Source of the DNA: Haliotis asinina
Taxonomy: Eukaryota > Mollusca > Gastropoda > Lepetellida > Haliotidae
Direction of reading: 5' to 3'
NCBI RefSeq assembly: GCF_037392515.1
Contig: NC_090291.1
Span: 43,083,001-43,147,000 of the forward strand
DNA length: 64,000 nt
The notes beneath the pieces were generated by a model. The model did no database searches. It saw only the letters and a program-made list of their open reading frames with translations, and had not been told where the DNA came from. Positions 2,329 through 44,180 of this stretch are shown here, piece after piece. Each line of letters begins with the position of its first letter. The stretch's first letter is position 1. The position numbers were made by a program, and so were the translations under genes.

Positions 2329-2572
2329 CTGTCTGGGACCCGTGCTTGCCATAAAAGGCGACTGTGCTTGTCGTAAGAGGCGACTAACGGAATGAGGTGG
2401 TCAGGCTTGCTGACTTGGTCGACACATGTCATCGGTTCCCCATTGCGCAGATCGATGTTCATGTTGTTGATCACTGGATTGTCCGGTCCAGACTTGATTA
2501 TTTTACGCCGCCATATGACTTGTATATTGCTGAGTGCAGCGTAAAACTAAACTCACTCACTCACTCATTCTC
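2329..2572 (+). repeat. Abalone-type SINE copy 1 of a tandem trio
   Basis: Runs from the 'aaaaggcgac' and 'gtaagaggcgactaacg' blocks to a (ACTC)n tail. Shared landmarks in all copies are a 'ttgatcactggattgtc' core and a 'gtaaaactaaactcac' end. The 61-codon ORF inside is carried by the repeat and is not a gene. Confidence 0.8.
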
Positions 2573-2574
2573 TT

Positions 2575-2858
2575 TCCGGTAAAAGACCCGTGAAGATTCG
2601 GGGTAGGACAGGTCTTTCGCAACCCATGCTTGTCACAAAAGGCGACTATGCGTGTCGTAAGAGGCGACTAACGGGATGAGTTGGTCAGGCTTGCTGACTT
2701 GGTCGACACATGTCATCGGTTCCCCATTGCGCAGATCGATGTTCATGTTGTTGATCACTGGATTGTCCGGTCCAGACTTGATTATTTTACGCCGCCATAT
2801 GACTTGTATATTGCTGAGTGCAGCGTAAAACTAAACTCACTCACTCATTCTCTTTCCG
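2575..2858 (+). repeat. Abalone-type SINE copy 2 of a tandem trio
   Basis: Nearly identical to copy 1 over the core, including the same spurious reading frame. It adds a 5' lead 'aagacccgtgaagattcggg' seen in complete copies. Confidence 0.8.
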
Positions 2859-2860
2859 GT

Positions 2861-3125
2861 AAAAGACCCGTGAAGATTCGGGGTAGGACAGGTCTTTCGC
2901 AACCCATGCTTGTCACAAAAGGCGACTATGCGTGTCGTAAGAGGCGACTAACGAGGTCAGGTGGTCAGGCTCGCTGACTTGGTCGACACATGTCATTGGT
3001 TCCCATTGCGTAAATCGATGCTCGTGCTGTTGATCACTGGATTGTCTGGTTCAAACTCGATCACTATTTACAGACCGCCGACATATACCTTGAATATTGC
3101 TGCGTGGGGCGTAAAATTAAACTAG
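2861..3125 (+). repeat. Abalone-type SINE copy 3 of a tandem trio
   Basis: Same family; the 5' half equals copy 2 and the 3' half is more diverged and closer to solitary copies. The mosaic suggests unequal exchange or insertion of one SINE into another's tail. Confidence 0.75.
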
Positions 3126-4640: not shown

Positions 4641-4737
4641 AGCATGAAACATACTGCAATTCATATATTTCCCGATCATGGCATTTTGTGACGTCCACAT
4701 AATACTGTTTGAATAAACAATATCCTCGAATAAGAGG

Positions 4738-5012
4738 TGACCCGTGAAGGTCCCGGGGTAGAATAGGCCTTCAGCAACCCATGCTTGTCATAAAAGGCGA
4801 CTATGCTTGTCGTAAGAGGCAACTAACGGGATCGGGTGGTGAGACTGGCTGACTTGGTTGACGCATGTCATCGGTTCCCAATTGCGCAGATCGATGTTCA
4901 TGTTGTTGATCACTGGATTGTCTGGTCCATGCTCGATTATCTACAGACCGTCGCCATATAGCTGGAATATTGCTAAGTGCGACGTAAAACTAAACTCACT
5001 CACTCACTCGAA
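4738..5012 (+). repeat. Abalone-type SINE
   Basis: Near full length, from 'cccgtgaaggtcccggggta' to 'aactcactcactcac', same family as 2329-3125. Confidence 0.85.
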
Positions 5013-9680: not shown

Positions 9681-9684
9681 ACAG

Positions 9685-9845
9685 GTTCAAGGCCACATAT
9701 AACACAAAAGAGTTCTTTGCAGATTCTGATTCAGTTCGGTAGCAAATTATCAAAAATGCAAATTATAGTTATAAAGTTGAAAAATAACGCGGTTAAAAAA
9801 AACACGTAATCGGAGTTCAAACGCTTCCCCAGCGCTGGGTGAGGG
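9685..9845 (-). mobile_element. Diverged fragment related to the TTAA element at 16.3-17.6 kb
   Basis: The sequence from 'caaggccacatataacac' to 'aacgcttccccagcgctggg' matches the reverse complement of about 17430-17604 block by block: 'ctttgcagattctg', 'ataaagttgaaaa', 'atcggagttcaaacg', 'cagcg'. Identity by eye is roughly three quarters. It lacks an intact TTAA end. Confidence 0.55.
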
Positions 9846-9850
9846 TTGGA

Positions 9851-9890
9851 GGGTTGGGGGGGGGGGGGGGGGGGGGGTGGGGGGGTGGGT
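9851..9890. repeat. Poly-G tract
   Basis: An uninterrupted run of 22 G (9856-9877) is followed by more G runs split by single T. It is capable of forming G-quadruplexes and is a likely site of assembly-length error. Confidence 0.9.
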
Positions 9891-10239
9891 GAGAAGTGGT
9901 TTCACCACCCGTGCAGTGATTAGCTTGAATCGGGAAGCCAACTGGTATAAACACAAGTGATGTGTGCAAGGTTATCGTTGCGGTAGAAGTGGGAGAACAA
10001 CAGATGTTTCTTGTGGTTACAAGCATCTTGGGTCGGCAGTAATAACAATACACTGGTATAATACCTGCATATTTGCAACCAACACGTCACAATTTAATTC
10101 TGGACTCACAAAAGTCCAGAAACTCTCAGCACTGTGGCCACTCTCTCACAAGGGATTTCGCAAAATTAAACAGGCAGCTGTTATGTATATGTGCTAAGGA
10201 TGAAAAAATGAAAAAAATTTTCGAAAACTCAAAATTTAA

Positions 10240-11580
10240 ACTCGCTCGCCCATGGGCACGCCCATGGGCGAACAATGGCCAGTGGGTAGGCCCATGGGCA
10301 GGCCCATGGGCGAAAGTGTTTAATTTCATCCAGAATAAATGTTTGGAGGTTGTAAATGAATGAAAAAATGTTAATAAGTATCATGACACAAATTTCAGCT
10401 TGTTGTGACTTGACTCTGCTAACTGACAGCGATTTTAAAAAATCTCGCCCATGGGTGAAAAACATATTGGCCCATGGACGAGAATAATTAATTTCATTGA
10501 AACTACATGTTTTTTTCCAGGCTTTGCAGCTTTTCAATGAATGAACTTGTATTTATTATTGTCTTGACACGAAATTAAGCTTAGTTTGACTTAATTCGGC
10601 TAATTAAGAGTGATTTTTCAAAACGCTTCGCCCATGGGCGAAAACCATTTGGCCCATGGGTGAGAATATTTACTTTTACTCAAAATACACCTTTTCCCAT
10701 GTTTTGGAGGTTGTGAATGGATGAAAGTATGTTCGTAAGTATCATGTCACAAAATGCAACTCATTTTGAATCAATTCCGTTAATTTAGAGCTATTTAACA
10801 AAATCTCACCCATGGGCGAAAAACATTTTGGCCCATGGGCGAGAATATTTCCTTTTACCCCAAACACATCTTTTCCAATATTTGGAGGATGTAAATGAAT
10901 GAAAGTACATTTATGAGTATCAGGACAGAAATTTCAACTCATTTTGACTTAATTCCTCTAAATGAGAGCAATTTGAAAACTCTCGCCCATGGGAGAAAGA
11001 CATTTTGGAATATTTGCCTTCACTCAAAATACATCTTTTCCTGTGGTTTGGAGGTTGTAAATGAATTAGGATATATTTGTAAGTATCATGGCACAAAATC
11101 CAACTCATTATGACTTAATTCTGCTAATTGAGACCGATTTTCAAAAACATCTCGTCCATGGGCGAAAAACATTGGGCCCATGAGCGAGAATATTTCCTTT
11201 TCACTCCAAATACATCTTTTCTAATGTTTTGGAGGATGTAAATGAATGAAAGTGCCATTATGAGTATCATGACTCATTTTGACTTAATTTTGCGAGTTCA
11301 GGAAGATTTTTAAAAATATGCCAGAATAATTACTTTTACTCAAAATACATCTTTTCCTGTGTTTTGGAGGTTGTAAATGAATGAGGATATATTTGTAAGT
11401 ATCATGGCACAAAATCCAACTCATTTTGACTTAATTCTGCTAATTTGTAACAAGTACAAGAATCTGGACTTCCACATAAATTTTCATAGTTTTTTTTATT
11501 GTCTTGGGGGTTGTAGATTTATAAATGAAAGTGTGTTTATAAGTATCACGACAAAAAAAATGAAATCATTCCGGTCTTAA
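10240..11580 (+). repeat. Tandem array of units of about 175 bp with CCCATGGGC palindromes
   Basis: Each unit has the order: 'ggaggttgtaaatgaatgaa', 'gtatcatgac', 'caactcattttgacttaatt', then one or two palindromes of the form (G/C)GCCCATGGGC(G/C), then 'aatatttccttttactc' and 'aatacatcttttcc'. Around a dozen palindromes occur in this arm; the last units have lost them. Confidence 0.85.
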
Positions 11581-11692
11581 TTCGACTAATCTCGCTCGTG
11601 GACGAAAATATTTTCGTTTGCTCGTTTTCTTTATTTTGCAAACATGTGGTTTAAAAATAGATGAAATTCTAATGACAATTCAGTTTAATTTC

Positions 11693-11956
11693 GTGAGTTT
11701 AGTTTTATGTCGCACTCAGCAATATCCCAGCAATATGGCGGCGGTTTGTAGATAATCGAGTTTGGATCAGACAATCCAGTGATCAACAGCATGAACATCT
11801 ACCTGCACAATTGGGAACTGATGACATGTGTCAGCAAAAGTCAGCGAGCCTGACCACCCCATCCCGTTAGTTACCTCTTACGACAAGCATAGTCGCATTT
11901 TATGGCAAGCATGGGTTGTTGAAGCCCTCTTCTACTCCAGATGTTCACGGGTCCCG
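11693..11956 (-). repeat. Abalone-type SINE in left arm
   Basis: Full-length reversed copy beginning 'gtgagtttagttttatgtcg'. Its partner lies at 19746-19990 in the right arm. Confidence 0.85.
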
Positions 11957-13110
11957 AACACAGAGCTTTACTGCCAGCAACATATACAGTACACTTAGAA
12001 TACTAAGCCTTGAGATTCCTTTGAATTTAGGTATTCTATAAATATAACAAAATTCAACCTATATCTATGAAGTTGAAGTTATTTGTGAAAGCCCTAATCA
12101 AGAGTGACCAAACTCCAGTATGCGCCTCCTCATGCTCCAATGCACACAGTGATCTGATTCGTCTCCATCGCAACTTAGGCTGCGTTTAACAGTACTTCAG
12201 TCAGTTTACTGTATCGGTCGAAATCTTACAATGAATGAATGAATGAATGAATGAAGAGCAAGAAGTATATGTGAATGAATGAAAGAAATGATAAAAGAAA
12301 GAAGTGCATATGTGAATGAATGAGAAAGGAATAATAAAAGAAAGAAGTACATATGTGAATGAATGAAAGAATAAAAACATGCTAAAGAACGCAAAACTAT
12401 CGTTAGATCACATGTGTTAACATCAGCTTGTTATTGTCTCCCTGGTCAGACGTAACAATTGTCAGACAGGTTAAAACAACAAACTATCTGGTTGACTGCA
12501 CAGCTGCCTGTTGACGTAGTATACCCACATCACCTACTTTTCCTGCGTAACCTTCATCTACATCACCACCCTTAATATATTGAGCAGAGAGCACAGAAGG
12601 CCCTATAGCTGTAACCACTGAACCGTGGCGTCTCTCTGCTCCCAAGTTCCCAAGTGGGGGTGTCCTTCTCTACCTCTTCCATTAATCTTTAAAACATCGA
12701 ACAAGCTCAACGCATGCATTTTTTTACTCAAATGTGATGTTATACATATCATAAGAGTATTTTTATGTATTATTCAGTTGATAAATTATTATTTCATGAT
12801 ACATATATGTACAATATTTTGCTTCGATTCTGTAACTACCTACATTATGACATTGAGACCATTCTGATTTATCGAGTAAAATACGATTGTATAGTTTTGA
12901 GTTTGAATCTTGGCATATTTTACCGGTTTGCCACTTTTGCACTCTGCCCTTTTAAAGGGGGCGTGTATATTTTGGTGGTTTTTAGTATTCCATCTATTCA
13001 TTTGGATTTATTAATTTATTTGTTTTTGTTTTGTTTTGTTTTGTTTTTTACTGCCAGTGGGTCTGTTAGTCTTCTTTGATAACTGTAGATTTATTCTGAC
13101 GTTTGACGAG

Positions 13111-16100
13111 CGGAACATGAAGTGTTGTTATCATGTATGTTATGTAATTATATTATTGGTATGGAGCGGCAGTGATATGTATGTTTATGCTTGCCAATCC
13201 AGTCCCGATTACATGAGGAGATTAGTTTAAAGTATAGATTAACGTTTCCATACTATTAATGTGTAATCATTATATCGGGCCATGAGGAATACGTAATGTA
13301 ATCAAGATTGACTTTGCGTTTACTTTTCTATTTTTTAAATAAATTTTCACTATTTTTGCTACACTCGAAAAGATTTTCTTTGCCTTTCGTGATTGTGGTC
13401 TCTAAGTATTTTAGAAATTATGTTGTTGAGACAACTAGAACTGTTGATCTGCAGTCTTTCAAAATTCATTTTCACGAGATATATTCTCCCTTTTTACCAG
13501 TTCTCAAAATGAACATATAACCGTTTACACAAAGGTATCTTCCCGTAAAATAAGTAGGACGAAAAGTGAAGTATAGGAGCGCATTCGCCATAACTGAAAT
13601 TGTTAAAATGATCCTGAAAACTGTCATTTTCAACATTCACCTTGCAAGCAATTTTATCAAGAAACTGAATAACTATTTTACTAATGGAAGGAGTGAATTG
13701 AAAGCCCATTTTATTAACTGAAGTCACTGATTGAACTCGCTAACATCGATTCACTTACATTCTGGTACACGTGTCTTATTTCGTTTCCTGAGGACACACA
13801 TTTTACTTTTTTTTATAGAAAATCCGTGTCTAATCCCATAAAACAACACCGTTGTCACTACACCAAACGATTTTGACCTCGACCTAAAACAAAGGTTTAA
13901 CTTACAGGACTACCTGTAAGATATCCCTTTCTTGATAACGAGTTTAACAGCTACGCCGAAATGCTGCTTACCTTATAAGAAGTTGTATATAGAACTTTCG
14001 TGGTTTTTGTCCATATGATCATGACCTGAACAGATATTACTTTGTCAAAGACTTCATGAGTGATTTTCAAGTTCTAATCCACACACAGATTTCCACTTTT
14101 TCATCATTTTGACTTTTATCTCAGTTTGTTGAGTATCTCAGCATAACTGGCAAAGACAATGGAAACTGAGCGGAACGATGACGCTTTCTGTTTCTTCCGC
14201 GTTCACTTACGTAATTTCCGCAAAGCGCCTACGACAATTTGCGCCGAAAAAGTCATGTCTCGTCCGCTGGTTTGTTTATTGGAGTAAAACAGCTGCCGCT
14301 TTCAAGTGTATTTTACTTGTCATATACAAAATTCATCCATGGATCACATTAGGTCATTAGGGTACACCAGCTTTGAAATGAACAGGTGTTCGTGAGTGTA
14401 TATGGATGAAAAAGACAGATTGCGCAAGACGCGCAGCCAAATATCTCACATTCAAAGGAAATCTCGAATTGATTGTTTTATAAGGCGTCGAGCTGACCAG
14501 TTGGTTTTGGTGTTGTGTATAAACCTCCTTTGCAAGAACTTTGTCAAGCATACCTGCTTTGTCCTTTTGCAAGACCTGCACATATTAGTGTTTGAAAGAC
14601 ATTAACATTTATGTGCGTGTGCTCTGGAAAACATTGTCCGGCACGATATTCCTTCCAGTTTAGTTATTGTGTGCATGCTGCATTTCAATTTTGGAAATGT
14701 GCTTAAAACATATTTTGATTCTCAAAGAATGTGGTTCGTTTAGCAAGTAAAATATTGCTTTGATTAACACTTCACCAGTACTATACAATATTACAGAATA
14801 CACTTAACCGGATACACAAAAACGACAAATTATAGCATTGTGATTAGGGGTATATGGGGTTATAGGAGTCCCTTTTTATCCACCGAGACAAGCCCTACAC
14901 GCCCTGGTGGGGTGTGGATTCGGGGGAGGGGGTAACGGAGGAGATGACCAAGACACACGTACTCCATACGCTATCATGGTCTTCCTTACTGCTTGAAGAT
15001 CGACCTTTTCTCACTGTGGTCTATGATGACTTCGGTGAACGGAAAAGAACTTATTCACTGTGAAAACCAGAAAATAGTTGAATCCGTCCACGATTTTATC
15101 ATAAAACACAAAGCTTGATTTTTAATTTTTTAACAGAAACTAATTAACTTGTCAAAAACCTTCTCACAAATGTTCAGTGTTTCTACAAAGAGCTAGTCAG
15201 ACACAACATACCGTAACTTTATTTTTCATGTTTACTTATATGATAGTTGTATTTGATGTAATGATATGTATGCATGTGTTATTATATGATAGTTCATATG
15301 GATGACGACACATGCTTCATTTATATTTTGTATTATATGCTGTATGAGTGAGGTACTGTAAAGCTTGTTCACCAGTCCCAATCAGAGTTACAAAACACAC
15401 AAATATACAACAACATGGAGATGTGTGGAGAAAATAGAGACATATGGAGAACAGCAATGTCATGACTGAACAGAAATCATTCCCTCTGTTGGTGAAGGCC
15501 GTGTGGGATTAGTTAAACAAAGAAATCTAGTCGACCATGTCTCCTTATCCTCTTACTCCTTAAACAAACGACTTGCCTGGGCTGTCTAAAATTGAACTGA
15601 AATGTTTGTAAATTCGATGTTTCGGGTATTACGTAAGGAGGTAATCAGGTGTCAACACTATGGCGTTCGACGTTCCGGACATGAGGGAAAACCAAATACG
15701 TTATAAAGTACAGTAATGTGGTCACTATGAGCGAGGCAGACAGTCTGATGAGCACAGCTCATTACGGAAATCTCTTGTCTTTGGAGCTGCTCGTTGAGAC
15801 GGTGAAGCCTTCTGTCAAGTTCTTCTTTATTCTTTATTGTGGCCACTGTGTCACAATATGCTGCTTACATTGCTCACAGACCCTCGATTCACGATGACGC
15901 CAACTTTACCGACTACTGTTCGTGCGACGACTATCATTCAGGAATTGGTTCCACTGCTCATTCTTTCATTGATGTCTTTGTGTATGTGTTTTAGCTCGTT
16001 AATTAGCGTAGAGACGAGTCTTCTGCTATTCTCGGGCACAAGTTCTCCAAGGCAGTCGACGCTCCGGGTGTCATTAGAACAGTGTTGAGCACTGTCACAC

Positions 16101-16324
16101 TCCACTGCTTTTCGACAGCCCTGTTGTGTATTTGATAAAACAATCGACAATCCGGGTGTGAACCAAAAGAGGATACCACCATTCTCATCGCTAGATGAAA
16201 TGGGATGAAGAAAACCCGCATACTCTTCATCACATTGCTACACCGTATTTACCATAACGAATGTTTAAATAGCACTTTATGTAAATAGAGCATCAAAACA
16301 AGCTGAAACCATGTATTATATTAA
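13111..16324. other. Spacer of the giant inverted repeat, mostly unassigned
   Basis: No intact transposase or other long frame. Only 15658-16233 on the minus strand looks faintly coding (separate entry). A G-rich stretch lies at 14905-14940. Confidence 0.4.
15658..16233 (-). pseudogene. Possible decayed coding region in the spacer
   Basis: Three minus-strand frames follow one another: one with ELVPENSRRLVSTLINELKH, one with WNQFLNDSRRTNSSR and a CEQCKQHIVTQW piece, and one with KEELDRRLHRLNEQLQRQEI (helical, coiled-coil-like). Codon use looks coding but frames switch and stops intervene. It may be a broken gene of the host element or a set of small exons. No family recognised. Confidence 0.25.
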
Positions 16325-17600
16325 AGGTCACATGCAACCAAAAAATCAAACATTATTAAAACACATTTATCACTTATTCATGACATATAATATACATTGC
16401 TGCTTTTAAAAAAACGAATAAACAAAATTATAAGCGTACAATCGCGATTCAAAAGTGCAATATTTTGTACTTGGGCTCACTTCCCTCGAAACGAAGCGTG
16501 CGGGAGACCGAACCCAGTCATAGCGGGTGGATATGCACTCAAGTGTAACGACGGTTTCCGATTGGCTGTTTCATTTGCAGATATGCTGAGGGTTCATTAT
16601 GTGTACAGAAAGATGATCTGTTTGATGGGTATTTTAGAAGTATAGCCAGTAACAAGAAAGTAAGATTCTGTATGGATAACAACTTCTTTTTGTGTACTTG
16701 ATGCGTCGTTTCAGTGTGGATTCATATACTGTTGTCAAACAAAATCATATACACTAAAAGAAGTCGTTATCCATGAAGAATGTACAGAGAGATGTTCGGT
16801 TTGGAAAATACATGTTCTCGCTCGATCCAATTAAAAATCATGTCAATAGAGATGGTCAACTACTGCGTGGCTGGAATCTGTCATTCGTCCAAGTACAAAG
16901 CAGGACTTGAAACTGACAAGAGTTTGCACCAGTTTCCGTCAGATCCAGTCATCCGAAAAAAATGAATGTAGTATGTTTGCAACCCACAGACATAAAAACA
17001 TGTCATGTGTATCACACGTGCCTAATTACATAATGTGGCAGACACGGGACCTCGGGTACACGAGTCATAATTCAACTTATTTTCTTTATGTCGTATAGTC
17101 TGATAGGTGTCAAGTTCAAATTGCACGTGGTCAATGATTGAAGCTGTGTATTGCATATTGTCTTTAGCAGACAGGCAGGCAGACATATAGGCGTGAATAA
17201 ACCAGACACTGAGCTTTCTCTGTGACAGAGACTGCTTACCACAATCAACAAGTTTTTTTTACGTAAGGAGAAGATTATTTAATTGTTTGTGTACACAACC
17301 AAGATTAGGCTACTGCTCACAACCTCAGACGCTGGGCATGCATACTGTTTCGAGCTCCGCGAACCTATTCACTGCGCATGCGTCACCGGCGCAGCGCAGC
17401 ACAGCTGTTGAAACCAGTTTTCCCCCTAACGCTGGGGGGAATGTAGTGAAACGTTTGAACTCCGATTTCGCGGGCTTTTTTTTCATCGCGTTTTTTTCAA
17501 CTTTATAGGTTGAATTGGCATTTTTTATGATTTGTTTCGGTAAATGCATACCGAAAGGTACCAGAATCCGCAAAGTTGTGTTTTACGTTGCATGTGACCT
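16325..17600. mobile_element. TTAA-flanked non-autonomous element with THAP fragment
   Basis: Ends are AGGTCACATGCAAC (16325) and its exact reverse complement (to 17600), each bordered by TTAA (16321-16324, 17601-17604), the target signature of piggyBac-type elements. Internally it holds an inverted pair around 16671-16775 ('ggataacaacttctttt' and 'aaaagaagtcgttatcc') and a short THAP-like coding piece. It is about 1.28 kb, too small for a transposase. Related debris lies at 9685-9845. Confidence 0.75.
16852..16966 (+). pseudogene. THAP-type zinc finger fragment
   Basis: Reads MVNYCVAGICHSSKY, a 10-residue gap, then SLHQFPSDPVIRKK. THAP domains share a CxxxxC near the N-terminus and an F-P-x-D-P-x-x-R-x-x-W block; both are present up to the Trp, where an AAAAAAATGA run puts a stop in frame. 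The second zinc pair (C..H) is not in frame. THAP domains bind DNA and are found in P-superfamily transposases and many host proteins. It looks like a broken exon captured by the TTAA element. Confidence 0.6.
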
Positions 17601-18088
17601 TTAACATGGTACTAACTATAGTCGATTCGAACCACTGCTCTACAGTTCACTGACTGCCTTGGATGCAGGCTTTTCCCACGTGGCGGGGTAAAACTTAATG
17701 ATCTATTCTCCCTCGCAAGGCCACGTGAACCAACCAGAAATGGACATTCTTAAATGGGGTAGGAGAAATATGCCCTGTAGGTTCTCGTCAAACGTCAGAA
17801 TAAATTTACAGGTACCAAAGCAGACTCACTCGCTGGGCGACTAGCAATGAAAAAAAACCAAACAAAGCAAAAACAGATAGATCAATTAATTTAAACAAAT
17901 AGATGGAATACTAAAAACCACCTAAATATTAGCATGCACGCATCGTTTAAAAAGATAGAGCGCTAAAGTGGCAAGATTCAAACTCAAAACTATTCAATCG
18001 AATTTTACTCGATAAATCAAAATGGTCTCAATGTCATAATGTGGTTAGTTACAGAATCAAAGCAAAATATTTTACATGTTTATGTACG

Positions 18089-18630
18089 ATTTATTTAGCA
18101 AAGCCAGAAGAATCCCCGACAAACACGGCCGCTTCTCCTCAATATGTGGGTTTGTGAGAGTGAGGGTACTCCCTACAAGGCTCACTCCCATTAGTTAACA
18201 AGGCGTCCTCCCATTTTATGTATTTTTAACTCGATAGGTACGGAAAATTAATTAGGCGATGTGGGTATGTCATGACTGGTTGATTTCTCAGGATTAGGTG
18301 AATTCGGTATGGTAGAGTCGATATACTATGATCATAGGGGATTTAGCAACCATGTTGGATTGAAGGAATGACAAAACTCTGTGATAGATTAATGAGTGTC
18401 TTTTTTAAGCATTATGAAAATGGTAATGGTAAATTAACACAAAATGCCCTAAACCTGTCCAGCGTGTCATATATATATATATATATATATATATCATCAC
18501 CTACTTTTCCTGCGTAACCTTCATCTACATCATAAAATAATATTATATATATATATTATATATATATAATAATATTTTATGATGTAGATGAAGGTTACGC
18601 TACATCATAAAATAATATTATATATATATA
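18089..18630. repeat. Insertion in right arm with (AT)n and a 44-bp palindrome
   Basis: Absent from the left arm, where the flanks join near 12790-12800. It ends in (AT)n (18473-18494) and a near-perfect palindrome (18512-18555 against 18557-18600) built around a copied 'gcgtaaccttcatctacatc' piece whose normal position is about 18860. It looks like a template-switch product. Confidence 0.7.
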
Positions 18631-19320
18631 TTTATCAACTGAATAATACATAAAAATACTCTTATGATTATGTATAACATCACATTTTAATAAAAAGATG
18701 CATGCGTTGAGCTTGTTCGATGTTTTAAAGATTAATGGAAGAGGTAGAGAAGGACACCCCCACTTGGGAACTTGGGAGCAGAGAGACGCCACGGTTCAGT
18801 GGTTACAGCTATAGGGCCTTCTGTGCTCTCTGCTCAATATATTAAGGGTGGTGATGTAGATGAAGGTTACGCAGGAAAAGTAGGTGATGTGGGTATACTA
18901 CGTCAACAGGCAGCTGTGCAGTCAACCAGATAGTTTGTTGTTTTAACCTGTCTGACAATTGTTACGTCTGACCAGGGAGACAATAACAAGCTGATGTTAA
19001 CACATGTGATCTAACGATAGTTTTGCGTTCTTTTGGAAGGGATGGCCGTGGTGTATCATTTATTCTTTCATTCATTCACATATGTACTTCTTTCTTTTAT
19101 TATATCTGTCTCATTCATTCACATATGCACTTCTTTCTTTTATCATTTCTTTCATTCATTCACATATACTTCTTGCTCTTCATTCATTCATTCATTCATT
19201 CATTCATTGTAAGATTTCGACTGATACAGTAAAATGGCTGAAGTACTGTTAAACGCAGCCTAAGTTGCGATGGAGACGAATCAGATCACTCAGTGCATTG
19301 GAGCATGAGGAGGCGCATAC

Positions 19321-19617
19321 TAATTAGTACAAATGGTAAAGAAAACATGCGAGTGACCTACCCCTGTTGTGGATAATTTCTGGTCTGACAAATAGGAGAA
19401 TACCCCATAAAACCTCGGACGAAGAAAAGCCGGGACGGGCAAACGGGAATTACTAAAATGGAGACCACACTATTAAAACGAAACATGCTAAACTGGGTAG
19501 GTACACTTAAAACTACTAGGTAGGTACATTTGGCAATTGTCAGTGGAATTGGCAAGACATATTTCAATACAGTTTAAAGATCTCACAACACCGTTTATTA
19601 GTGTGTCCCAGCATAGT
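19321..19617. mobile_element. Small insertion in right arm, unknown family
   Basis: The left arm reads straight across this point (around 12118-12124). The insert is bounded by the trinucleotide ACT on each side, a possible 3-bp target duplication. No terminal repeats or coding sequence seen. Confidence 0.45.
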
Positions 19618-19745
19618 CACTGGAGTTTGGTCACTCTTGATTAGGGCTTTCACAATTAACTTCAACTTCATAGATATAGGTTGAATACCTAAATTCAAAA
19701 GAATCTCAAGGCTTAGTATTCTAAGTGTACTGTATATGTTGCTGG

Positions 19746-19990
19746 AAGTAAAGAGCTTCAACAACCCATGCTTGCCATAAAAGGCGACTATGCGTGCCGT
19801 AAGAGGCGACTAACGGGATGGGGTGGTCAGGCTCGCTGACTTGGTTGACACATGTCATCAGTTCCCAATTGTGCAGGTCGATGTTCATGCTGTTGATCAC
19901 TGGATTGTCTGATCCAAACTCGATTATCTACAAACCGCCGCCATATTGCTGGGATATTACTGAGTGCGACATAAAACTAAACTCACGAAA
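19746..19990 (+). repeat. Abalone-type SINE in right arm
   Basis: Mirror of 11693-11956, at the same point in the arm. Confidence 0.85.
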
Positions 19991-19999
19991 TTAAACTGA

Positions 20000-21620
20000 A
20001 TTGTCATTAGAATTTCATCTATTTTTAAACCACATGTTTACAAAATAAAGAAAACGAGCAAACGAAAATATTTTCGTCCACGAGCGAGATTAGTCGAAAT
20101 AAGAACGGAATGATTTCATTTTTTTTGGTCATGATACCTATAAACACACTTTCATTCATATATTTACAACCTCCAAGACAATAAAAAAAAACTATGAAAA
20201 TTTAAGTGGAAGTCCAGATTCTTGTACATGTTACAAATTAGCAGAATTAAGTCAAAATGAGTTGGATTTTGTGCCATGATACTTACAAATATATCCTCAT
20301 TCATTTACAACCTCCAAAACACAGGAAAAGATGTATTTTGAGTAAAAGTGATTATTCTGGCATATTTTTAAAAATCTTCCTGAACTCGCAAAATTAAGTC
20401 AAAATGAGTCATGATACTCATAATGGCACTTTCATTCATTTACATCCTCCAAAACATTAGAAAAGATGTATTTGGAGTGAAAAGGAAATATTCTCGCTCA
20501 TGGGCCCAATGTTTTTCGCCCATGGACGAGATGTTTTTGAAAATCGGTCTCAATTAGCAGAATTAAGTCATAATGAGTTGGATTTTGTGCCATGATACTT
20601 ACAAATATATCCTAATTCATTTACAACCTCCAAACCACAGGAAAAGATGTATTTTGAGTGAAGGCAAATATTCCAAAATGTCTTTCTCCCATGGGCGAGA
20701 GTTTTCAAAATTGCTCTCATTTAGAGGAATTAAGTCAAAATGAGTTGAAATTTCTGTCCTGATACTCATAAATGTACTTTCATTCATTTACATCCTCCAA
20801 ATATTGGAAAAGATGTGTTTGGGGTAAAAGGAAATATTCTCGCCCATGGGCCAAAATGTCTTTCTCCCATGGGCGAGAGTTTTCAAATTGCTCTCATTTA
20901 GAGGAATTAAGTCAAAATGAGTTGAAATTTCTGTCCTGATACTCATAAATGTACTTTCATTCATTTACATCCTCCAAATATTGGAAAAGATGTGTTTGGG
21001 GGTAAAAGTAAATATTCTCGCCCATGGGCCAAAATGTTTTTCGCCCATGGGTGAGATTTTGTTAAATAGCTCTAAATTAACGGAATTGATTCAAAATGAG
21101 TTGAATTTTGTGACATGATACTTACGAACATACTTTCATCCATTCACAACCTCCAAAACATGGGAAAAGGTGTATTTTGAGTAAAAGTAAATATTCTCAC
21201 CCATGGGCCAAATGGTTTTCGCCCATGGGCGAAGCGTTTTGAAAAATCACTCTTAATTAGCCGAATTAAGTCAAACTAAGCTTAATTTCGTGTCAAGACA
21301 ATAATAAATACAAGTTCATTCATTGAAAAGCTCAAAGCCTGGAACAAAAACATGTAGTTTCAATGAAATTAATTATTCTCGTCCATGGGCCAATATGTTT
21401 TTCACCCATGGGCGAGATTTTTTAAAATCGCTGTCAGTTAGCAGAGTCAAGTCACAACAAGCTGAAATTTGTGTCATGATACTTATTAACATTTTTTCAT
21501 TCATTTACAACCTCCAAAACATTTATTCTGGATGAAATTAAACACTTTCGCCCATGGGCCTGCCCATGGGGCTGCCCATGGGCCTACCCATTGGCCACTG
21601 TTCGCCCATGGGCGTGCCCA
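20000..21620 (-). repeat. Mirror tandem array with CCCATGGGC palindromes
   Basis: The same units as 10240-11580 in reverse complement. A duplicated unit (20696-20870 and 20871-21045) is present here and single in the left arm. Confidence 0.85.
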
Positions 21621-21797
21621 TGGGCGAGCGAGTTTAAATTTTGAGTTTTCGAAAAAAATTTTTTTCATTTTTTCATCCTTAGCACATACATAACAGCTGT
21701 CTGTTTAATTTTGCGAAATCCCTTATGAGAGAGTGGCCACAGTGCTGAGAGTTTCTGGACTTTTGTGAGTCCAGAATTAAATTGTGACGTGTTAACC

Positions 21798-22640
21798 CAT
21801 GTTGTGTAGTATTAGAAATGCTAATTTCATTGTTCAGCCTGAAAACTGAAATGTTTTAAATCATGTGTATGGAAACATAGACAAATATATTATGACAAGC
21901 AGTCTGTGTCACAGACAAAACGCAATGTCTGTTAATTGTCACCTGTCACTCTGCTTGTCTGCTAGTGGCAATAGGCAATACTCAACTTCAATCATTGACC
22001 AACTTAACACCTGTCAGACTATACACCATAAACAAACTACACTGATGTATGGCTCGTGCACCTGGTGTCTGTCTCTGTCACATTATGTAATTACACAGAC
22101 AGGCAGGTGCAATTCCTGTACACATGACATGTTAGTACGTCTGTGGGCTGCAAACAAACTACCTCCATTTTTCCCGGATGACTGGGTCGGACGGAACTGG
22201 GTGCAAACTCAGATTGTCAGTTTCAAGTTCTGTATGTACAAAACCCATTATTTCAATATATAGTATTTCTGGATAACAACTTCTTCTACTGTATATGCTT
22301 AGATGTGGATGGATGGGTCATAATGCCATTGGAATATTGTCAAACAGTTTAACACAGTATTTTGTACGAATCCACGAGTGTCTAACATTAGTCTTTCTAT
22401 TTCTGTTTGAAAAACATGTAACTGGTAATATGATGACGGTACACTAGAACACAGCTGATATAAACTGTAACCATCACAGACACATTTATACAATTTAACA
22501 TTTCAACCACTGGCCTTTGTTACGAAAACACGCCAATCAACGTATCTCACTGGCTTCTGTCAAGATGAGATGACAATTAACTCACTGGGGTCAATTGAAA
22601 AAGGGTAGCAATAACAAATATATACGGGATATTGTACCAT
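21798..22640. other. Intergenic, no supported feature
   Basis: A 132-codon frame at 21865-22263 has no splice or family support. A 'ggataacaacttcttct' stretch at 22270 resembles the inner repeat of the TTAA element at 16.7 kb. Confidence 0.3.
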
Positions 22641-22647
22641 GTTAGTC

Positions 22648-22896: not shown

Positions 22897-22950
22897 GTTA
22901 GTCATTCTTGAATGGGATTTTGTTCAAAGACTTTTTTCCTATGGGATTTT

Positions 22951-23986
22951 GTCCGTCCCCCAATGAGACGGTTGACAGTAACATGTTACTCCGCGGGTCT
23001 TTTTAACCAACTTCGGTTCACAACTCAAGCATGGCGCAAGACTTTCATTAGTTTTTTTCAACTTACGTTAAGAAGGTAAGACACGCATACGCGGTATCGG
23101 GTTATATTAATAATAACTTCGTGTTAACTGCACATAGCAACGTGTCTGTGTAGGTTCTTACACCATGTTCAAGGTAACAGTGACAACAACCAAGTGATTA
23201 GAATTATTGAACGCTGTGACAAACATCATGTACTTGAATAACAAGGAGTAGATAACTGGATCAGACCAGGTGGGAACTAAAACCAACAAACAGCACAGCC
23301 ATGAAGCAAATAATCAAGAGGCATTAAGTACTAAAAACAGTAGTAAACGAACGGGTGCTGATTGATAAAGTCTGCCTCACCTGACCTCGTTGCCAAGAGG
23401 TACGCCTGAAACATAGTGTATGGAATAAGTCTAACACAGAACTGAACCAAAACATCTAATGGTATAATGTCCGTCCCCCAATGAGACGGTTGACAGTAAC
23501 ATGTTACTCCGCGGGTCTTTTTAACCAACTTCGGTTCACAACTCAAGCATGGCGCAAGACTTTCATTAGTTTTTTTCAACTTACGTTAAGAAGGTAAGAC
23601 ACGCATACGCGGTATCGGGTTATATTAATAATAACTTCGTGTTAACTGCACATAGCAACGTGTCTGTGTAGGTTCTTACACCATGTTCAAGGTAACAGTG
23701 ACAACAACCAAGTGATTAGAATTATTGAACGCTGTGACAAACATCATGTACTTGAATAACAAGGAGTAGATAACTGGATCAGACCAGGTGGGGACTAAAA
23801 CCAACAAACAGCACAGCCATGAAGCAAATAATCAAGAGGCATTAAGTACTAAAAACAGTAGTAAACGAACGGGTGCTGATTGATAAAGTCTGCCTCACCT
23901 GACCTCGTTGCCAAGAGGTACGCCTGAAACATAGTGTATGGAATAAGTCTAACACAGAACTGAACCAAAACATCTAATGGTATAAT
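22951..23986. repeat. 518-bp tandem duplication
   Basis: 22951-23468 and 23469-23986 are the same sequence; I found a single difference (gggaact against ggggact). Open frames inside are short and unsupported. Confidence 0.9.
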
Positions 23987-24827
23987 GATATGAATTGTTC
24001 AAATTCCTCATACCGGTCTTGGAGGTATTAACATCATCATCCTTTTTCATTACCTGAAGTTTACAAATACATGCAAAATATCATGAGGATACTTTATACC
24101 CACAGAAGTGTACATACTGTCTATTTTCAGCTTCCTGCTGATGAATCAGATATTCGTATTCTGATGCAAAAACACCCCTAGCCCAACAATTCAGATCATA
24201 AATTCATGTGTCATAATTTATCTGATACAAGTTAAAGGACGGTTTAATACACACTCTTCCAAATATTTAGCCTTTAAAATGTATTTACACAGAGTGGTAT
24301 TTGTCTAGATAGTTTTGTGACTATGATTGTACTATCAAGAAGACATCATCTAAAGAAAGTCCATAATAAGGTATCCAAAGATAGTCTGTAATTTTATTCA
24401 ATTAAGATAATTCTCGTAGTGAAATAAAAAATTCTGCCAGAAATTTAAGCAGGAAGAAAATTTCGCCAGAAATTCCTGCAGCAAAAAAACATTCTGCCAG
24501 AAATTTCTGCAGAAATGCATTTTCAGAACCAATTTGTGAGCTTATAAACACGTGGACACACTGGCACATGAACGTTTCGTGTTCATCTCCTCGAGACCTT
24601 TCCAATGATATATAATATGTCTTTGTAGCTTGCTCCCTTCTGTGTGTCAAGTCAGGACTCGCTGGCCATTCCTAAGTTGTCCCGCCCGGCCTTCCACCAT
24701 TCCAACCAACCATTATAGGTTTCTGGCACGCCTAAGGGAGACAACCCTTCAAAGCGAATAGCTGCGCCTTAGATGAGAGGGAATCCTGTTGCCATCCTGT
24801 GAATTTGACAGTCTACCATGAGTTTGG
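23987..24827. other. Intergenic with short TTCTGCCAGAAAT repeats
   Basis: At 24420-24525 a palindromic 'attctgccagaaatt' type motif recurs about four times. A piece at 24660-24780 (lead 'gtcccgcccggcc') looks like a repeat but is unclassified. No gene supported. Confidence 0.35.
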
Positions 24828-26117: not shown

Positions 26118-26515
26118 GAATATAAACTCAGCAAAAATAAAAACTTGTCACTCATTATTTTTCAAATGGTGTTTTGAAACTGCTCTTGAAAGAGTTCTTG
26201 TTGTGATTATAGTTAAATGCATTGTGAAGGGCATTATGCCACACATTCATTCTACTGGTCGGGCCTACGTAGCACGTTTCCACGTGCAACAAGTCACGTG
26301 ACCTATTGATACTCGTTCAGTTGATCTCACGGTAGCAGAGGAGTAGAGTGTCATCTCAGAAAAGCACGGTTTTATGGTTAATTATTCGTCAATTTGCAAT
26401 GCCACGGCTGTCAAACATTCAGCGTGAACGTGCCAATGGCATGCTGAATACGGGAACGTCCGTCACTGGGTTGCGAGGGTTATGGGATGCAGTCGACAGA
26501 TCATCCATAATTTCC
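26118..26515 (+). mobile_element. 5' end of a Tc1/mariner-type transposon
   Basis: The text 'ataaactcagcaaaaataaa' is the familiar Tc1-like terminal repeat of animal genomes. At 26399 an ATG opens MPRLSNIQRERANGMLNTGT, the first DNA-binding helix of a Tc1-like transposase. After about 25 codons the similarity ends where the LINE begins. The 3' half was not found nearby. Confidence 0.6.
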
Positions 26516-28610
26516 AAACATTCTTCCTCGTCCAATTATGTTCCAAAATTTCAAAAATACCAAGAACAACAAGAAGGGAAACCCATCAATTCTCATTCGG
26601 ACAACGGGGAAGATTATAACGAACTCTTTTCCATCCATGAGCTGTATAATGCTCTTGAACAAGCTCATAATACTGCTACAGGAGCTGATGGTATACATTA
26701 TCAACTCCTGAAACACTTACCTGGATCATGTTTAGAGACTCTGTTGAATATCTTTGATGAAATGTGGACATCAGGTAAATTTTCTTCATCCTGGCGTGAA
26801 GCCATAGTTGTTCCCATACCCAAACCTGGACGTGATCATACTGATCCATCTAACTATAGACCTATTTCACTGACTAGCTGAGATTGCAAAACCATGGAAA
26901 ACATGTTCAATGACAGATTAATATGGTACTTAGAACCCAATTACTTAATCACAGATATTCAATGTGGTTTTCGTAAAAATCGCAGTACCATTGACCATTT
27001 GGTTCGATTGGAATCATTCGTTAAGAATGCAATTGTAACCAAACAACATGCAGTGTCACTCTAGAAAAGACTTATGACACTACATGGAAGTTCGATATTT
27101 TAAAAGATATTCATGACTTTGCATTGCGAGGCCATCTGCCTCAATTTATATCGGATGTTTTAGCTGACCGGCAATTTCAAGTCCGCGTGGGTTCTACCTT
27201 GTCTGATCATTACAGACCAGGGTGTCCCACAAGACAGTATTTTGTCTGTCACTTTATTTAGCATTAAAATCAACAGTCTAGCAAATGTTTTAAATGATTC
27301 AATTGATGGATCACTTTTCGTGGATGATTTTAATATTTCTTGTCGTGGGAAATACAGGCACACAACTGAAAGACAACTACAGCTTTGCTTAAATAAGATT
27401 GATAAATGATGTGTGGAAAATGGATTTAAATTTTCAAAATCCGAAACTAATTGCATCCACTTTTGCCGAAAGTATAAACGTTATAAAGATCCAGAACTAT
27501 ATCTAGATAACACAATTATTACAGTTGTTAAAGAAGCAAAATTAATGGGTAAAATGTTTGATGAGCATTTAACATTTCGACCACACATATTTAAAAAATA
27601 AATGCCTGAAGGCCCTTGATTTGCTGAAGGTTGTCTGTAATACAAAGTGGGGAGGGGATCAGAAAACCCTCCTCCAACTATACCGAGCTCTTATACGATC
27701 CAAACGTGATTACGGCTCCGTTGTATCTGGTGGATCCTGCAAAAGCAACCTTAAACTTTTAGATTCTATCCATCACCAAGGTCTAAGACTTTGTCTTCTA
27801 TCCTTTCGAACTTCTCTTCGAATATAATCAGTTACAACGTAAATATAGCAATTACAAATCCTTAGTCACAGACAGGTCAAAGGACGGTGGCGCTGTAGCC
27901 TGTGTCACTGTGACTGGTTCTAGAACAATATCTACTAGAATACCGGACAACAGCTCTATTTTCACAGCTGAAGCAAATGCCATGTTAACGGCTCTTAAAC
28001 ATACTGAAAGACACCCTAAACATAAACAATATATAATTTATTCAGACTCTCTTTCTTGCATTCAGGCTGTTAAAACTTATCGTGCAAACATCCACTTTTG
28101 ATAGAAATTATTGAACTATATAATGATCTTGCTACTGGCCAATACGACATCGTCTTCTGTTGGTTACCCAGCCATGTTGGTATCTCTGGTAACACTTTGG
28201 CTGACCTTGCTGCTAAAGTAACACTCAACAAATCTGTGACACCACTTCTTATTCCCTACACTGATTATAAAGCTAGCATTAGATCTTACATCCGTGATCT
28301 GATGCAGAAGAAGTGGGACACCCAAGTAGGTCTCAATAAATTACATGCAATAAAACCAAATGTCGGTTACATCTACTTGGGTTGTCGGTCCAGATATGAA
28401 TAGGTAATTATACGACGGTGTCATATTGGCCACACCAGGTATATGCATGAATGCCTTTTGAAAGGTGAGGATCCTCCGTTCTGCATCCCTACGATGAAAG
28501 AATCAGTCAAGCATGTCTTGCTTGACTGTGTTGAATATTCCATCACAAGGGACAATTATTTCAAATCAAGAACTATGAAGGACTTTTTAGTAACGTAAGT
28601 TCTTATTGAA
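26516..28610 (+). pseudogene. LINE copy A ORF2 remnant (RT and RNase H)
   Basis: Recognisable pieces: PKPGRDHTDPSNYRPISL (RT block), LFVDDFNISCRGK with the FVDD catalytic pair, the thumb region, then IFTAEANAMLTALKHTERHP and YIIYSDSLSCIQAVK (RNase H core), and FCWLPSHVGISGN. Stops occur after SLTS, at 27061-27063 and elsewhere, and frames shift several times; a segment between the thumb and RNase H is missing. It is not functional. Confidence 0.8.
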
Positions 28611-30419: not shown

Positions 30420-31630
30420 GATCAATTGAGTTTTGGCCACGCTTTCTTGTGATTGAATCTGTTGATAAAACACCTCTCAAACTGAACCCGTTCGCAGTTG
30501 CCAAAGGTATTTAAGGTATTGCCGGGGAAGTTAAGAACATTAAACGGTTACGTTCAGGTGCACTGCAGATTGAGTGCGGGAAACGGCAACAGTCAGTTAA
30601 TTTGATGAGCATAGAATCGTTTGTTGGAATTCCGGTTACTGTATCTGCTCACAAGACGTTAAACACGAGTAAAGGGATCATCAGAGACCGTGATCGGTTG
30701 TTTTCTGACATGACAGAACTTGACATCATGACTGAAATGAAAGATCAAGGTGTGCTCGACGTCAAACGCTTTTCAATCCGGAAAAACAATGAAAGTGTTC
30801 CAACCAATACCTATCTGTTCTCATTTTCATCTCCGACAGCTCCAAAATCATTGAAGGCTGGTTACGGCAACATCAAGGTTGACCTGTACATTCCGAACCC
30901 GCTGAGATGTTTTAAATGTCAGAAGTACGGCCATGCTGTAAATACTTGTACATTGTCTGTTGTGTGTGCTCACTGTGGTGAGAAGACACACACAACAGAA
31001 GATTGTACTAGTGACTTCAAAAAATGCACCAACTGCTCAGGCGACCATTCCTCATTTTCTAAACAATGTCCTGTTTGGAAATAAACAAAAACAAATTCAC
31101 TCAAAATATCTCTTTTTTTAGGCCAAAAATCTGGTAAAAAGGTCTAGAAAGTTATGCTGCAGTAGCAACATCAACATCGGAGTCACGCTCTAAAATAACA
31201 AAATCATCCACAGGCTGCCAAACTACCTTGACTTGGGTACATTGCGATTCTCCACAGCTTTTGTACCCAGCTATATCATCACAGACTGAGGAATCACTTC
31301 CTAGTACCTGAAAGTCGGCTTCTGATCACAAATCATCATCATCTCAGTCACATTCAAAGTCTCAATCGACAGCTGATAGTCAACAAACGGTGAAAAGTAA
31401 ACCGAAGTCAAAGCCTGATGCTTCAAAACAACAAAGTGGCAGAGCTCCTAAGTTGTCACAAAATAAAATTCAATTGTTTAATAAAGATGGGTCTCTTGAA
31501 GAGATGGACGTTTCTGAAAACGTCCATTCTAGGGCACATAGCTTGTCGCCCTCCAAAAGAGTGCGGGGTAGATCCCCAATAAATCCACCCAAAAGACAGT
31601 TTATTCCAATAATATTGTACAGTGGAACTG
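30420..31630 (+). pseudogene. LINE copy B ORF1 (gag-like, three CCHC knuckles)
   Basis: The frame at 30602-31084 contains FKCQKYGHAVNTCTLSVVC, then CAHCGEKTHTTEDC and CTNCSGDHSSFSKQC, three nucleic-acid-binding knuckles of ORF1 proteins in I-type LINEs. The same frame extends upstream to about 30425 across a TAA at 30510-30512 and ends early at TAA 31082-31084. A Ser/Lys-rich remainder continues to 31640 in other frames (SPSKRVRGRSPINPPKRQ). Confidence 0.75.
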
Positions 31631-34600
31631 CAGAGGATTGAGGACTAATTTACATGAATTACAGCTATTAGTCCAAGATTTCACACCTTCAGCGATATGT
31701 CTCCAAGAGACATATTTAAAGCAAACGGATACATTTGACCTTCGTCATTTTAATGCATATCATTGTTTTTCACCTCGGGGCGATAGAGCCACTGGCGGAT
31801 CATCCATTCTAGTCAGACAAAACGTTATTCAAAGCCCTGTTTCACTTAACACTAATATGCAAGCTGTTGCAGTGAGAATTACTTTACATGTATCGTTTAC
31901 GCTATGCTCTCTTTATATTTCACCGTCTTCGGCGCTTGCCAAAACCGAACTTCAAGCTCTATATGATCAGCTCCCGAAGCCCTGTATTATAATGGGAGAT
32001 TTAAATGGGCACAACCCACTCTGGGGTAGTGTATGTACAAACACTAAAGGTAAATTGTTGGAGGACTTTTGTTCTGACAATGATTTATGTATTTGTAATG
32101 ATGGTTCCAACACATATTTACACCCTGGGACAGGGACCTATTCTGCTCTTGACTTGTCACACACAAATTCAGAACTACTAAATGAATTTGAATGGTCACT
32201 CCACGATGACCTATGTGGAGGTGACCATTTTCCTACTGTATTAAAAGCTGTAACTCCATCCGATGTTCCTCCATCATCAAGACGAAATTTTAAAAAGGCT
32301 AACTGGGCTTTATATGAAACACTGTGTGCGGAGAAACTTACACCTGAACGTTTTATTGACGTTCACGATGCTATTAAATGTTTTTCTGATGAACTTAATT
32401 CCATAGCTGATGAGTGTATACCAAAGTCCTCTGTAGTTCCACACATAAGAAAACCATGGTTCAACGATGAATGCAAACAAGCTAGGAAGGCAAGGAAAAA
32501 AGCAGAACATTATTTCCGTCGCCATCCTATGGTGCATAATTTAAATAAATTTAAGATTTTAAATGCTAAAGCACGGCGTACTTTTAAACAGAACAAACGC
32601 CAATCTTGGAAAAATTATGTATCCAAAATACATTCTCGGACACCTATGTCCAAAGTATGGAACATGGTCCAGAAAATCAAAGGTAAAGGTATTAAACCTA
32701 CTGTCCATCATCTTAGACATGGAGATCAATTGCTTACTGATAAATCAGATATTGCTAATAAACTGGGTGAAACCCTTGCTAAACACTCTTCCTCTTCAAA
32801 TTATACACCTAAATTTCAGCAATATCAAAAACAACAAGAAAAGAAAATGATTAATTTCAATTCTGATAACGGGGAAGATTACAATGAAACGTTTTCTATT
32901 CATGAACTCCATACTGCCCTTGATCAAGCTCATGACACTGCTACAGGAGCTGATAACATACATTATCAACTCCTGAAACATTTACCAGAATCCTGTCTGG
33001 AAACTCTCCTAAGTATTTCTGATGATATTTGGACATCGGGTAACTTTCCTCCTTCATGGCGTCATGCCATAGTGGTACCAACACCTAAACCTGGACGTGA
33101 TCATACAGATGCATCCAATTATCGACCGATTGCATTACCTAGCTGTGTTTGCAAGACGATGGAACGCATGATAAATAATCGACTTGTTTGGTACTTGGAA
33201 ACAAATAATCTCATAACAGATCTACAGTGTGGTTTCCGTAAAAACAGAAGTAATGTCGACCACTTAGTGCGACTGGAATCATTTGTTAAAAACGCACTAA
33301 TTAATAATCAACATCCTGTGTCTATCTTTTTTGATCTTGAAAAAGCATGTGACACAACCTGGAAATATGGCATTTTGAGAGATTTACATGACTTTGGCTT
33401 GCGAGGTCGTTTGCCTGAATGTACTGCCAACTTTTTAAATGACAGATAATTCCAGGTCCGTGTGGGTTCTACCCTGTCTGATCATTACAATCAGGATCAG
33501 GGTGTTCCACAAGGCAGTATTCTGTCTGTCACACTTTTTAGCATCAAGATAAACAGTTTATCAAAAGTTATAAACGATTCAATTGATGGATCGTTATTTG
33601 TGGATGATTGTAATATTTCTTGTCGTGGTAAAAATATGCGTACCATTGAACGGCAATTGCAGTTGTGTTTAAACAAGATTAATAAATGGTGTCTTGCAAA
33701 CGGCTTTAAATTTTCTAAATCGAAAACTAACTGCATACATTGTTGTCGAAAATACAAACCACATAAAGACCCTGAACTATCTCTAGATGGGACGCCCATT
33801 AAAGTTGTGAAGGAAGCCAAGTTCTTGGGTCTTATCTATGATTCGCATTTAACGTTTTTACCACATATTAAATCACTTAAAACTAAATGTCTGAAAGCAC
33901 TTGACTTGTTGAATGTGGTTTCAAATTCTAAATGGGGAGGGGATCAAGCTACCCTTCTCCATCTCTATCGATCACTCATTCGTTCTAAACTTGATTATGG
34001 CTCAATCGTCTATGGTGGAGCCTGCAAAAGCAATCTTAAACTTCTTGATCCTGTCCATCATCAAGGTCTGAGATTTTGTCTTGGATCTTTTAGAACTTCA
34101 CCTATTCACAGTCTCTATGTTGAGGCTGATGAACCTTCTCTTGAGCAGCGCCGTATAAAGTTAGCTTTACAGTACATTACTAAATTATACTCTAATCATT
34201 CTAGCCCTGCATATAACTGTGTTTTCAATCCCCTTTATGAGGATTTATACAACAAAAATCTTCTCTTGTCCCGCCTCTAGGACATAGAATTAAACCCTTT
34301 CTTTCTGCTGCTGGCATTCAGCTGGAAAACATAGCTCCCTCCCGTCTTCTTTCTTTTCCTCCTTGGCAGTTGGTCAGGCCTCAAGTAGACCTAACATTGT
34401 CTTTTGTTGGTTACCCAGCCACGTAGGCATTTCTGGTAACACAATGGCCGATTTTACTGCCAAGGCAGCACTCAAAAAATCTGTGACACCACTTCTTATT
34501 CCATACTCTGATTACAAAGCGAACATTAGAACCTACATAAGTGATCTGATAAAGAAGAAGTGGGACACCCAAGTAGACATAAATAAATTACATGAAATAA

Positions 34601-34907
34601 AACCGTATATTGGTTACACCTACTTGGGCTGTCAGTCCAGATTTGAAGAGGTTATTTTAAGACGATGTATTGGTCATACACGATATACACCGTACCTGTT
34701 GAAAGGTTGAAAGGTGAGGATCCTCCGTTTTGTATCCCTTGTGATGAGAGAGTCACGGTCAAACATATCCTGCTTGACTGTGTTGAATTCTCCATCACAA
34801 GGGATAAGTATTATACAGCTAAAACAATTAAGGTTCTTTTTACCAGCGTTAGATCTCATTTAATTATTGGTTTTTTAAAAGACATCGAGTTTTTGGTTGA
34901 ATTTTGA
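31605..34907 (+). pseudogene. LINE copy B ORF2 (endonuclease, reverse transcriptase, RNase H)
   Basis: Opens with VQWNCRGLRTN, then the AP-endonuclease motifs ICLQETYLK, MGDLNGHNPLWG and GGDHFPTVL. The RT follows with PKPGRDHTDASNYRPIAL, QGVPQGSILS and FVDD (33597-33608). A TAA at 33447-33449 breaks the frame where copy A has a Gln codon. After 34280 there is a frame change, then a deletion removes the first part of RNase H and joins directly to FCWLPSHVGISGN. Catalytic residues of EN and RT are present but the chain is not continuous. Confidence 0.85.
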
Positions 34908-43888: not shown

Positions 43889-44180
43889 GGTGTGTGAGAG
43901 AGTTCAGTTTTACGCCGCACTCAACAATATTCCGGGTTTTTGCGGCGGTTTGTAAGCAGTCGAGTCTGGACCAGACAGCCCAGTGATCAACAACATGAGC
44001 ATCGATCAGCGCAATTGGGGACCGATGACATCTGTCAACAAAGTCAGCAAGCCTGACCACCAGCCTCTTACAAGGATGGGATACTGACGACCAATATTCT
44101 AACCCGAACCTTCACGGGTTCAGGAAAATCACGCCATACAGCTGGAGTATTGCTGCGTGCGACGTAAAACTAAACTCACT
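43889..44180 (-). repeat. Abalone-type SINE plus a short opposite-strand SINE end
   Basis: A reversed copy spans 43889-44120. It is followed by a 50-bp forward 3' end (44130-44180: 'cgccatacagctggagtatt'). Confidence 0.75.

Follow-up and report, generated by a model that had tools for sequence, protein, structure and literature searches.

Features of the locus

The window analysed here is a 64,000-nucleotide stretch of the Haliotis asinina genome (contig NC_090291.1, positions 43,083,001 to 43,147,000 of the forward strand). Between positions 10081 and 21793 it carries two long inverted arms around a middle domain, bordered on both sides by AACC. We interpret this locus as a single member of a large non-autonomous family of foldback-type DNA transposons, with a probability of roughly 95%. 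The element and its immediate surroundings comprise the following features, in window coordinates:

9684..10080, + strand: left part of an older repeat copy split by the element
10077..10080, no strand: left target-site duplication (TSD) AACC, seen in the sequence and present as a single AACC in the empty sites L034-L039
10081..10337, + strand: left terminal domain, starting with AACACGTCACAATTTAATTC and holding a hairpin with a 9-bp stem
10338..11445, + strand: left tandem-unit array (~177 bp per unit), carrying CCCATGGG near-palindromes
11446..13110, + strand: left inner arm, with a repeat copy resembling a short interspersed element (SINE) at about 11694-11953
13111..16320, + strand: middle domain, first part, without coding signal
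16321..17604, + strand: nested later element flanked by TTAA, ends AGGTCACATGCAAC, outside the foldback family
17605..17783, + strand: middle domain, last part
17784..20235, - strand: right inner arm, with ~300 and ~540 bases beyond the content of the left arm
20236..21522, - strand: right tandem-unit array, one unit above the left
21523..21793, - strand: right terminal domain, ending in CGTGTT
21794..21797, no strand: right TSD AACC, seen in the sequence and in the empty sites
21794..22647, + strand: remaining, right-hand part of that older repeat copy

Architecture of the arms

Pairing between the left arm (10081-13110, 3,030 bp) and the right arm (17784-21793, 4,010 bp) sets in precisely at 10081/21793; the adjacent 60 outer bases align at 30%. 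The terminal 20-mer stands at both ends of the element and has no further occurrence in the window at up to 3 mismatches (0 occurrences in 100 shuffles). Both arms follow the same order from outside to inside: a terminal domain of ~257-270 bp, an array of ~177-bp units (7 in the left arm and 9 in the right, counted with a fuzzy anchor) and an inner arm containing the SINE-like repeat. The initial annotation, which had described an 11.7-kb element with arms of common order and end sequence, outer arms built of tandem units and AACC on both borders, was thus accurate as to structure and borders; its size was too large, as the later insertion at 16321-17604 leaves an element of ~10.4 kb.

Identity between the arms over aligned columns was 98.4% in the terminal domain, 99.1% in the tandem units, 95.7% in the SINE-like repeat, 95.6-99.2% in other inner parts and 86.3% in the innermost stretch (by BLAST, with gaps counted, 79% for 12807-13110). 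The longest substitution-free run between arms covered 574 aligned bases and exceeded all of 2000 shuffles of the same differences (mean 153, maximum 340); the arm differences are therefore unevenly spread. Relative to the left arm, the right one has one additional unit, as well as stretches of ~300 and ~540 bases that are missing on the left.

Allowing up to 2 mismatches, the near-palindrome CGCCCATGGGCGA was matched 50 times in the window, at 26 sites (mean of 0.32 matches expected by chance), none of them outside the arms. A hairpin with the 9-bp stem TTCTGGACT/AGTCCAGAA was located in the left terminal domain (z = -2.5; 4/200 shuffles folded equally well). Within the right inner arm, an AT-rich stretch at 18480-18640, read by eye, holds small pieces of arm sequence (ATCACCTACTTTTCCTGCGTAACC...) such as templated repair would leave.

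Empty sites of the window's copy

The sequences flanking the element (9684-10080 and 21803-22647) are two portions of a single repeat. When joined with one AACC, they form a 344-base sequence that spans the junction without interruption at 40/40 scored places (752 candidates in total) with 86-91% identity, and a single AACC was present at the junction in all six fetched empty sites. These empty sites, which the initial annotation had named as a check, prove the AACC duplication. Compared with a more distant copy of the repeat nested in the middle of the element, the flanks showed a looser fit near the junction, where the left part scored above all 500 shuffles and the right part was unremarkable (84/500 as good).

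Uninterrupted empty sites with a single AACC exclude two other origins of the window's copy. One is an assembly fold-back artefact, of which near-identical inverted arms are typical; however, the outer flanks differ and together form one repeat seen uninterrupted elsewhere, the arms differ by substitutions, by a whole unit and by the stretches absent on the left, and the same plan recurs at independent sites. We regard this explanation as refuted, with a negligible residual probability. The other is a local inverted duplication of genomic DNA with AACC flanks arising by chance. A 4-bp match alone is weak evidence and inverted duplication also makes such arms, but this origin is likewise refuted, and remains extremely improbable, given the empty sites, about a thousand other ends in the genome and 4-bp duplications at differing sites.

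Copies of the family in the host genome

A search of the host genome (1,143,192,487 bases in 159 contigs) for the end 20-mer with up to 2 mismatches returned 1055 places (551 forward and 504 reverse), compared with 11 (4 forward and 7 reverse) for a control pattern. The further copies that the initial annotation had proposed to look for are therefore abundant. Pairing of ends was judged on 100 listed of the 913 exact ends, among which 30 facing neighbour pairs lay less than 60 kb apart; 21 of these spanned 8.7-12.6 kb, and two of the 30 represent one element within a duplicated stretch. From the numbers of ends, the pairing rate and the middle domain, we estimate that long copies number some 300-350. 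The end 18-mer was also present in three viral contigs, with nothing else of the element there, and a 23-mer of the tandem unit found no match there.

Sixteen copies other than that in the window were fetched: 15 complete ones and one of 22.7 kb (L031-L033), which is a standard element carrying two retroposon insertions. Exact 4-bp TSDs were found in 14/16 of these copies, while ends of different elements matched in 0/240 control combinations. Flanks extracted by pattern gave a similar picture, with exact 4-bp pairs in 27/30 cases versus 6/868 control combinations. Together with the empty sites, the many copies and their duplications at differing sites bear out the earlier suggestion that the locus is a mobile element and not a local inverted duplication.

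The full plan (the middle, flanked on each side by inner arm and units) was present in 12/16 fetched copies, and the middle was retained in 14/16. Identity of the middle was 93.6-96.9% within the window's subfamily and 76-93%, depending on the stretch, versus a second subfamily (L012, L013, L018 and L031-L033). Over a 1-kb middle stretch available in 14 copies the subfamilies were 11.5-13.9% apart; the closest pair, L017 and L021, differed by 0.6%. These two copies occupy different contigs and have different duplications, and such a low divergence at different sites suggests recent movement. A 301-base probe from the middle found 352 candidate places, 40 of which were scored and proved 96-100% identical, the window's own included. 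The number of units per arm ranged from 0 to 9 across copies (fuzzy anchor), with 0 (L019) and 1 (L016) representing arms without a normal array.

Coding content

Nested retroposons aside, open frames in the copies did not exceed 168 residues, except for one of 289 residues in a tandem-repeat stretch of L016. Nine frames from the window and seven from other copies gave no hits above the Pfam cut-off; matches below it were weak, the best being YueH (E = 9.7e-6) in the L016 repeat frame. Protein searches with one outer-arm frame and one middle frame detected no relatives. When the window's middle was aligned with L012, L013, L018 and L032, seven long alignments gave a synonymous share of 0.15-0.29 over six frames (0.23-0.25 expected), consistent with no coding signal, and 31/120 gaps were divisible by three. 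Since the shared middle shows no coding signal, the family looks non-autonomous.

An alternative is that this is a decayed autonomous element, the middle of which was formerly a transposase gene. Retention of the middle in most fetched copies and the presence of open frames of 120-168 residues, plus that of 289 in L016, would fit such a history. Against it, the subfamilies when compared show no coding signal in any frame, the 16 translated frames gave no Pfam match above cut-off (several were weak and below it) and the one middle frame searched had no protein relative, which makes this history unlikely.

Divergence between arms

Mean divergence of the two arms within one element was 2.4-2.6%, compared to 5.8-6.3% between elements over both subfamilies and 3.1-3.9% within the first subfamily. 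The divergence was patchy: the arms of L027 were identical (0.0%) over two segments but 3.9% apart over another, and L029 had one segment at 0.0% and another at 5.9%. Across elements, resemblance among arms lying on one side of the middle was clear in the inner segment (4/2000 permutations as extreme), weak in the next segment (277/2000) and absent in the terminal domain (1279/2000). We read this pattern as movement of the whole unit plus exchange between arms, which would be strongest on the outside.

Several observations weigh against this interpretation of the family, or limit it. Fetched copies were picked by pairing and size, and not at random. L029/L030 has a 5-bp TSD and L018 has none (2/16 fetched copies); L014 (1.2 kb) and L022 (4.8 kb) are without the middle, and L016 and L019 carry units on one side only. 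Just right of the junction, the empty sites are longer than the window's flank by 10-11 bases in five of six cases and by one base in the sixth. Arms of the same element were strict nearest relatives in 5/12, 2/9 and 5/11 cases for the three segments; with so few strict pairs, homogenisation is partial. Finally, no transposase partner with the family's ends was found among the loci searched, and mobilisation in trans is a step that we infer.

Search for a transposase partner

The partner search covered 38 other ends from the list that had no facing partner nearby, ~1 kb each. Thirteen of them depart from the known family over long stretches and three more over short ones; interiors were examined for three of the 13 (L078, L079 and L080). 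For L078 and L079, no second end turned up with 3 or fewer errors, and their resemblance to the family was slight; 10 of their frames contained no transposase, and both were rejected as partners. One frame, at L079:4673-5023 on the minus strand, matches an interleukin-17 domain and lies in the 8 kb beside a family end. L080 yielded retroposon fragments (RNase H) as well as a DDE_3 transposase, which has inverted ends of its own and was judged a nested stranger. Another locus, L072 (G000 C2:4775197-4776200), has only ~43 bases in common with the family before it diverges, and may represent a related family with the same tip.

Target preference and classification

Target preferences were profiled over 35 distinct flanks of fetched copies, in which the left and right flank of an element are not independent. 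Duplicated positions favoured A, T/A, A/T and T, with A or T in 91% of flanks at the two inner positions; in addition, A was favoured at -10 to -8 and T at -7.

Inverted arms, tandem units, a middle domain, TSDs and many insertions place the family among foldback-type DNA transposons, and its assignment to a superfamily was examined by comparison with known groups. FB elements of Drosophila melanogaster have 9-bp TSDs; by description alone, their plan of inverted arms, tandem units and a middle is alike. Foldbacks of this species are also named in PMC4079207, according to which most foldbacks seem to be Mutator elements, with exceptions. A similar layout is that of Tetris of Drosophila virilis (PMC4079207): each of its long inverted arms is described as combining a terminal flanking domain with arrayed ~220-bp tandem repeats and an inner domain, the middle lacks apparent genes, the element is non-autonomous and its unit number varies, and in this our family is alike. 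In contrast, Tetris is reported with 8-10 bp TSDs, as in Mutator-type elements, arms of up to 1.7 kb, 3 structurally complete copies and a variable middle, whereas the abalone family combines 4-bp TSDs with arms of 3-4 kb, roughly a thousand ends and a common 3.2-kb middle.

Galileo, a Drosophila element of the P superfamily (PMC4168063), has arms lengthened by tandem repeats, inserted elements or internal sequence, and its largest copy in D. willistoni, of 9.0 kb, follows a similar plan: its arms measure 4.2 and 4.7 kb, and it lacks a transposase segment. Its described TSDs are 7-8 bp (consensus GTATTAC) and it has related copies with a transposase segment, unlike the present family, where no 7- or 8-bp match occurred in 30 pairs and no such copy was seen. 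No P-type transposase was present among the open frames of the 16 fetched copies, a genome-wide search not having been made. Ginger1/Ginger2 termini are given as TGTNR (PMC2836005), and the present element has AACAC at its ends. For Sailor (DD82E), TSDs are described as mostly TATA and terminal inverted repeats as usually starting with GT or CC (PMC8533490); here TSDs varied and ends were AA. The TTAA duplication of Kolobok and piggyBac was not observed for the foldback family. In TSD or ends, the present family is unlike Ginger, Sailor, Kolobok, piggyBac, Galileo/P and Tetris/Mutator.

Sola2 TSDs are reported as 4 bp and AT-rich, AWWT in Dictyostelium (PMC3627910), and the target sites found here are alike, although this trait is not exclusive to Sola2 and such sites alone are not decisive. 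Terminal inverted repeats of Sola2 are reported to be 12-21 bp (PMC3627910), a difference from the present family. We conclude that this is a new foldback family, the mobility of which probably depends on a transposase acting in trans and belonging to another superfamily. On balance, we lean towards a transposase outside Mutator and P, Sola2-like or of an undescribed superfamily, which would spread the gene-free ~10-kb unit whole, with its non-coding middle kept, to several hundred copies at a 4-bp AT-rich target with a flanking A/T motif.

In such a scheme, a transposase made elsewhere in the genome would bind the terminal inverted repeats (perhaps recognising the tip together with the hairpin and the CCCATGGG-bearing units of the arrays), move the entire unit and insert it at AT-rich sites with a 4-bp stagger. 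The arms may also exchange sequence, through gene conversion or unequal crossing-over and increasingly so in their outer parts; this would keep them alike and let unit numbers drift. Unconventional spread, for instance replicative or rolling-circle instead of cut-and-paste, might be considered because several hundred copies seem many for a gene-free unit of 10 kb. Fixed-length TSDs and terminal inverted repeats, however, are marks of a DDE-type transposase, and we consider such a mode highly unlikely for this family.

Literature searches on foldback elements in molluscs and abalone, which did not cover Repbase and Dfam, retrieved no such family, in agreement with the initial description of the element as apparently undescribed; in the available passages of two mollusc papers, the word foldback appears solely in citing Tetris. 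The family thus constitutes an apparently gene-free foldback with about a thousand dispersed ends, some close copies and a clear 4-bp target signature. It offers a large natural series for studying how long arms grow and stay alike, and a route to a new foldback transposase. In flies, foldback elements have been linked with inversions and with satellite DNA seeding (PMC4079207), and the long mirror arms described here are candidate sites of chromosome inversion and assembly error.

Nested TTAA element

The ~1.28-kb insertion at 16321-17604 has TTAA on both sides and AGGTCACATGCAAC ends. An uninterrupted site for it was found in 11/16 other copies (L016 and L032 with an altered TTAA), and in the remaining five no match spanned the site. 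It is a separate, later insertion, Kolobok-like by its TSD and ends, TTAA duplications and purine ends having been described for Kolobok (PMC9587614). A 37-residue open stretch with a THAP-like start by eye gave no Pfam match. The insertion is distantly related to the flank repeat (74% in the best-scoring stretch); one TTAA-type repeat family has two copies in the window, the nested one and the older one split by the foldback element.

Other features of the window

Further SINE-like copies of the arm repeat were located at 2338-3123, 4737-5010, 37312-37551, 38394-38601, 43890-44061, 56316-56578 and 61961-62158, some of which connect to the arm repeat via other copies. To the right of the element, 22941-23469 and 23459-23987 form a 529-bp tandem duplication (99.2% identical). 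Related retroposon copies of the type without long terminal repeats occupy 26336-28400 and 30515-34707, the second with endonuclease and reverse transcriptase (Pfam); their relatives are nested in L031-L033 and L080. A 472-residue open frame at 39544-40959 had no Pfam match. Lastly, a frame on the minus strand at 36026-36592 carries a Speriolin_C domain (Pfam) and gave 9 protein-search matches, its best named relatives coming from Lottia gigantea (a hypothetical protein, 50% identity) and Liolophura sinensis (speriolin-like, 46%), both molluscs.

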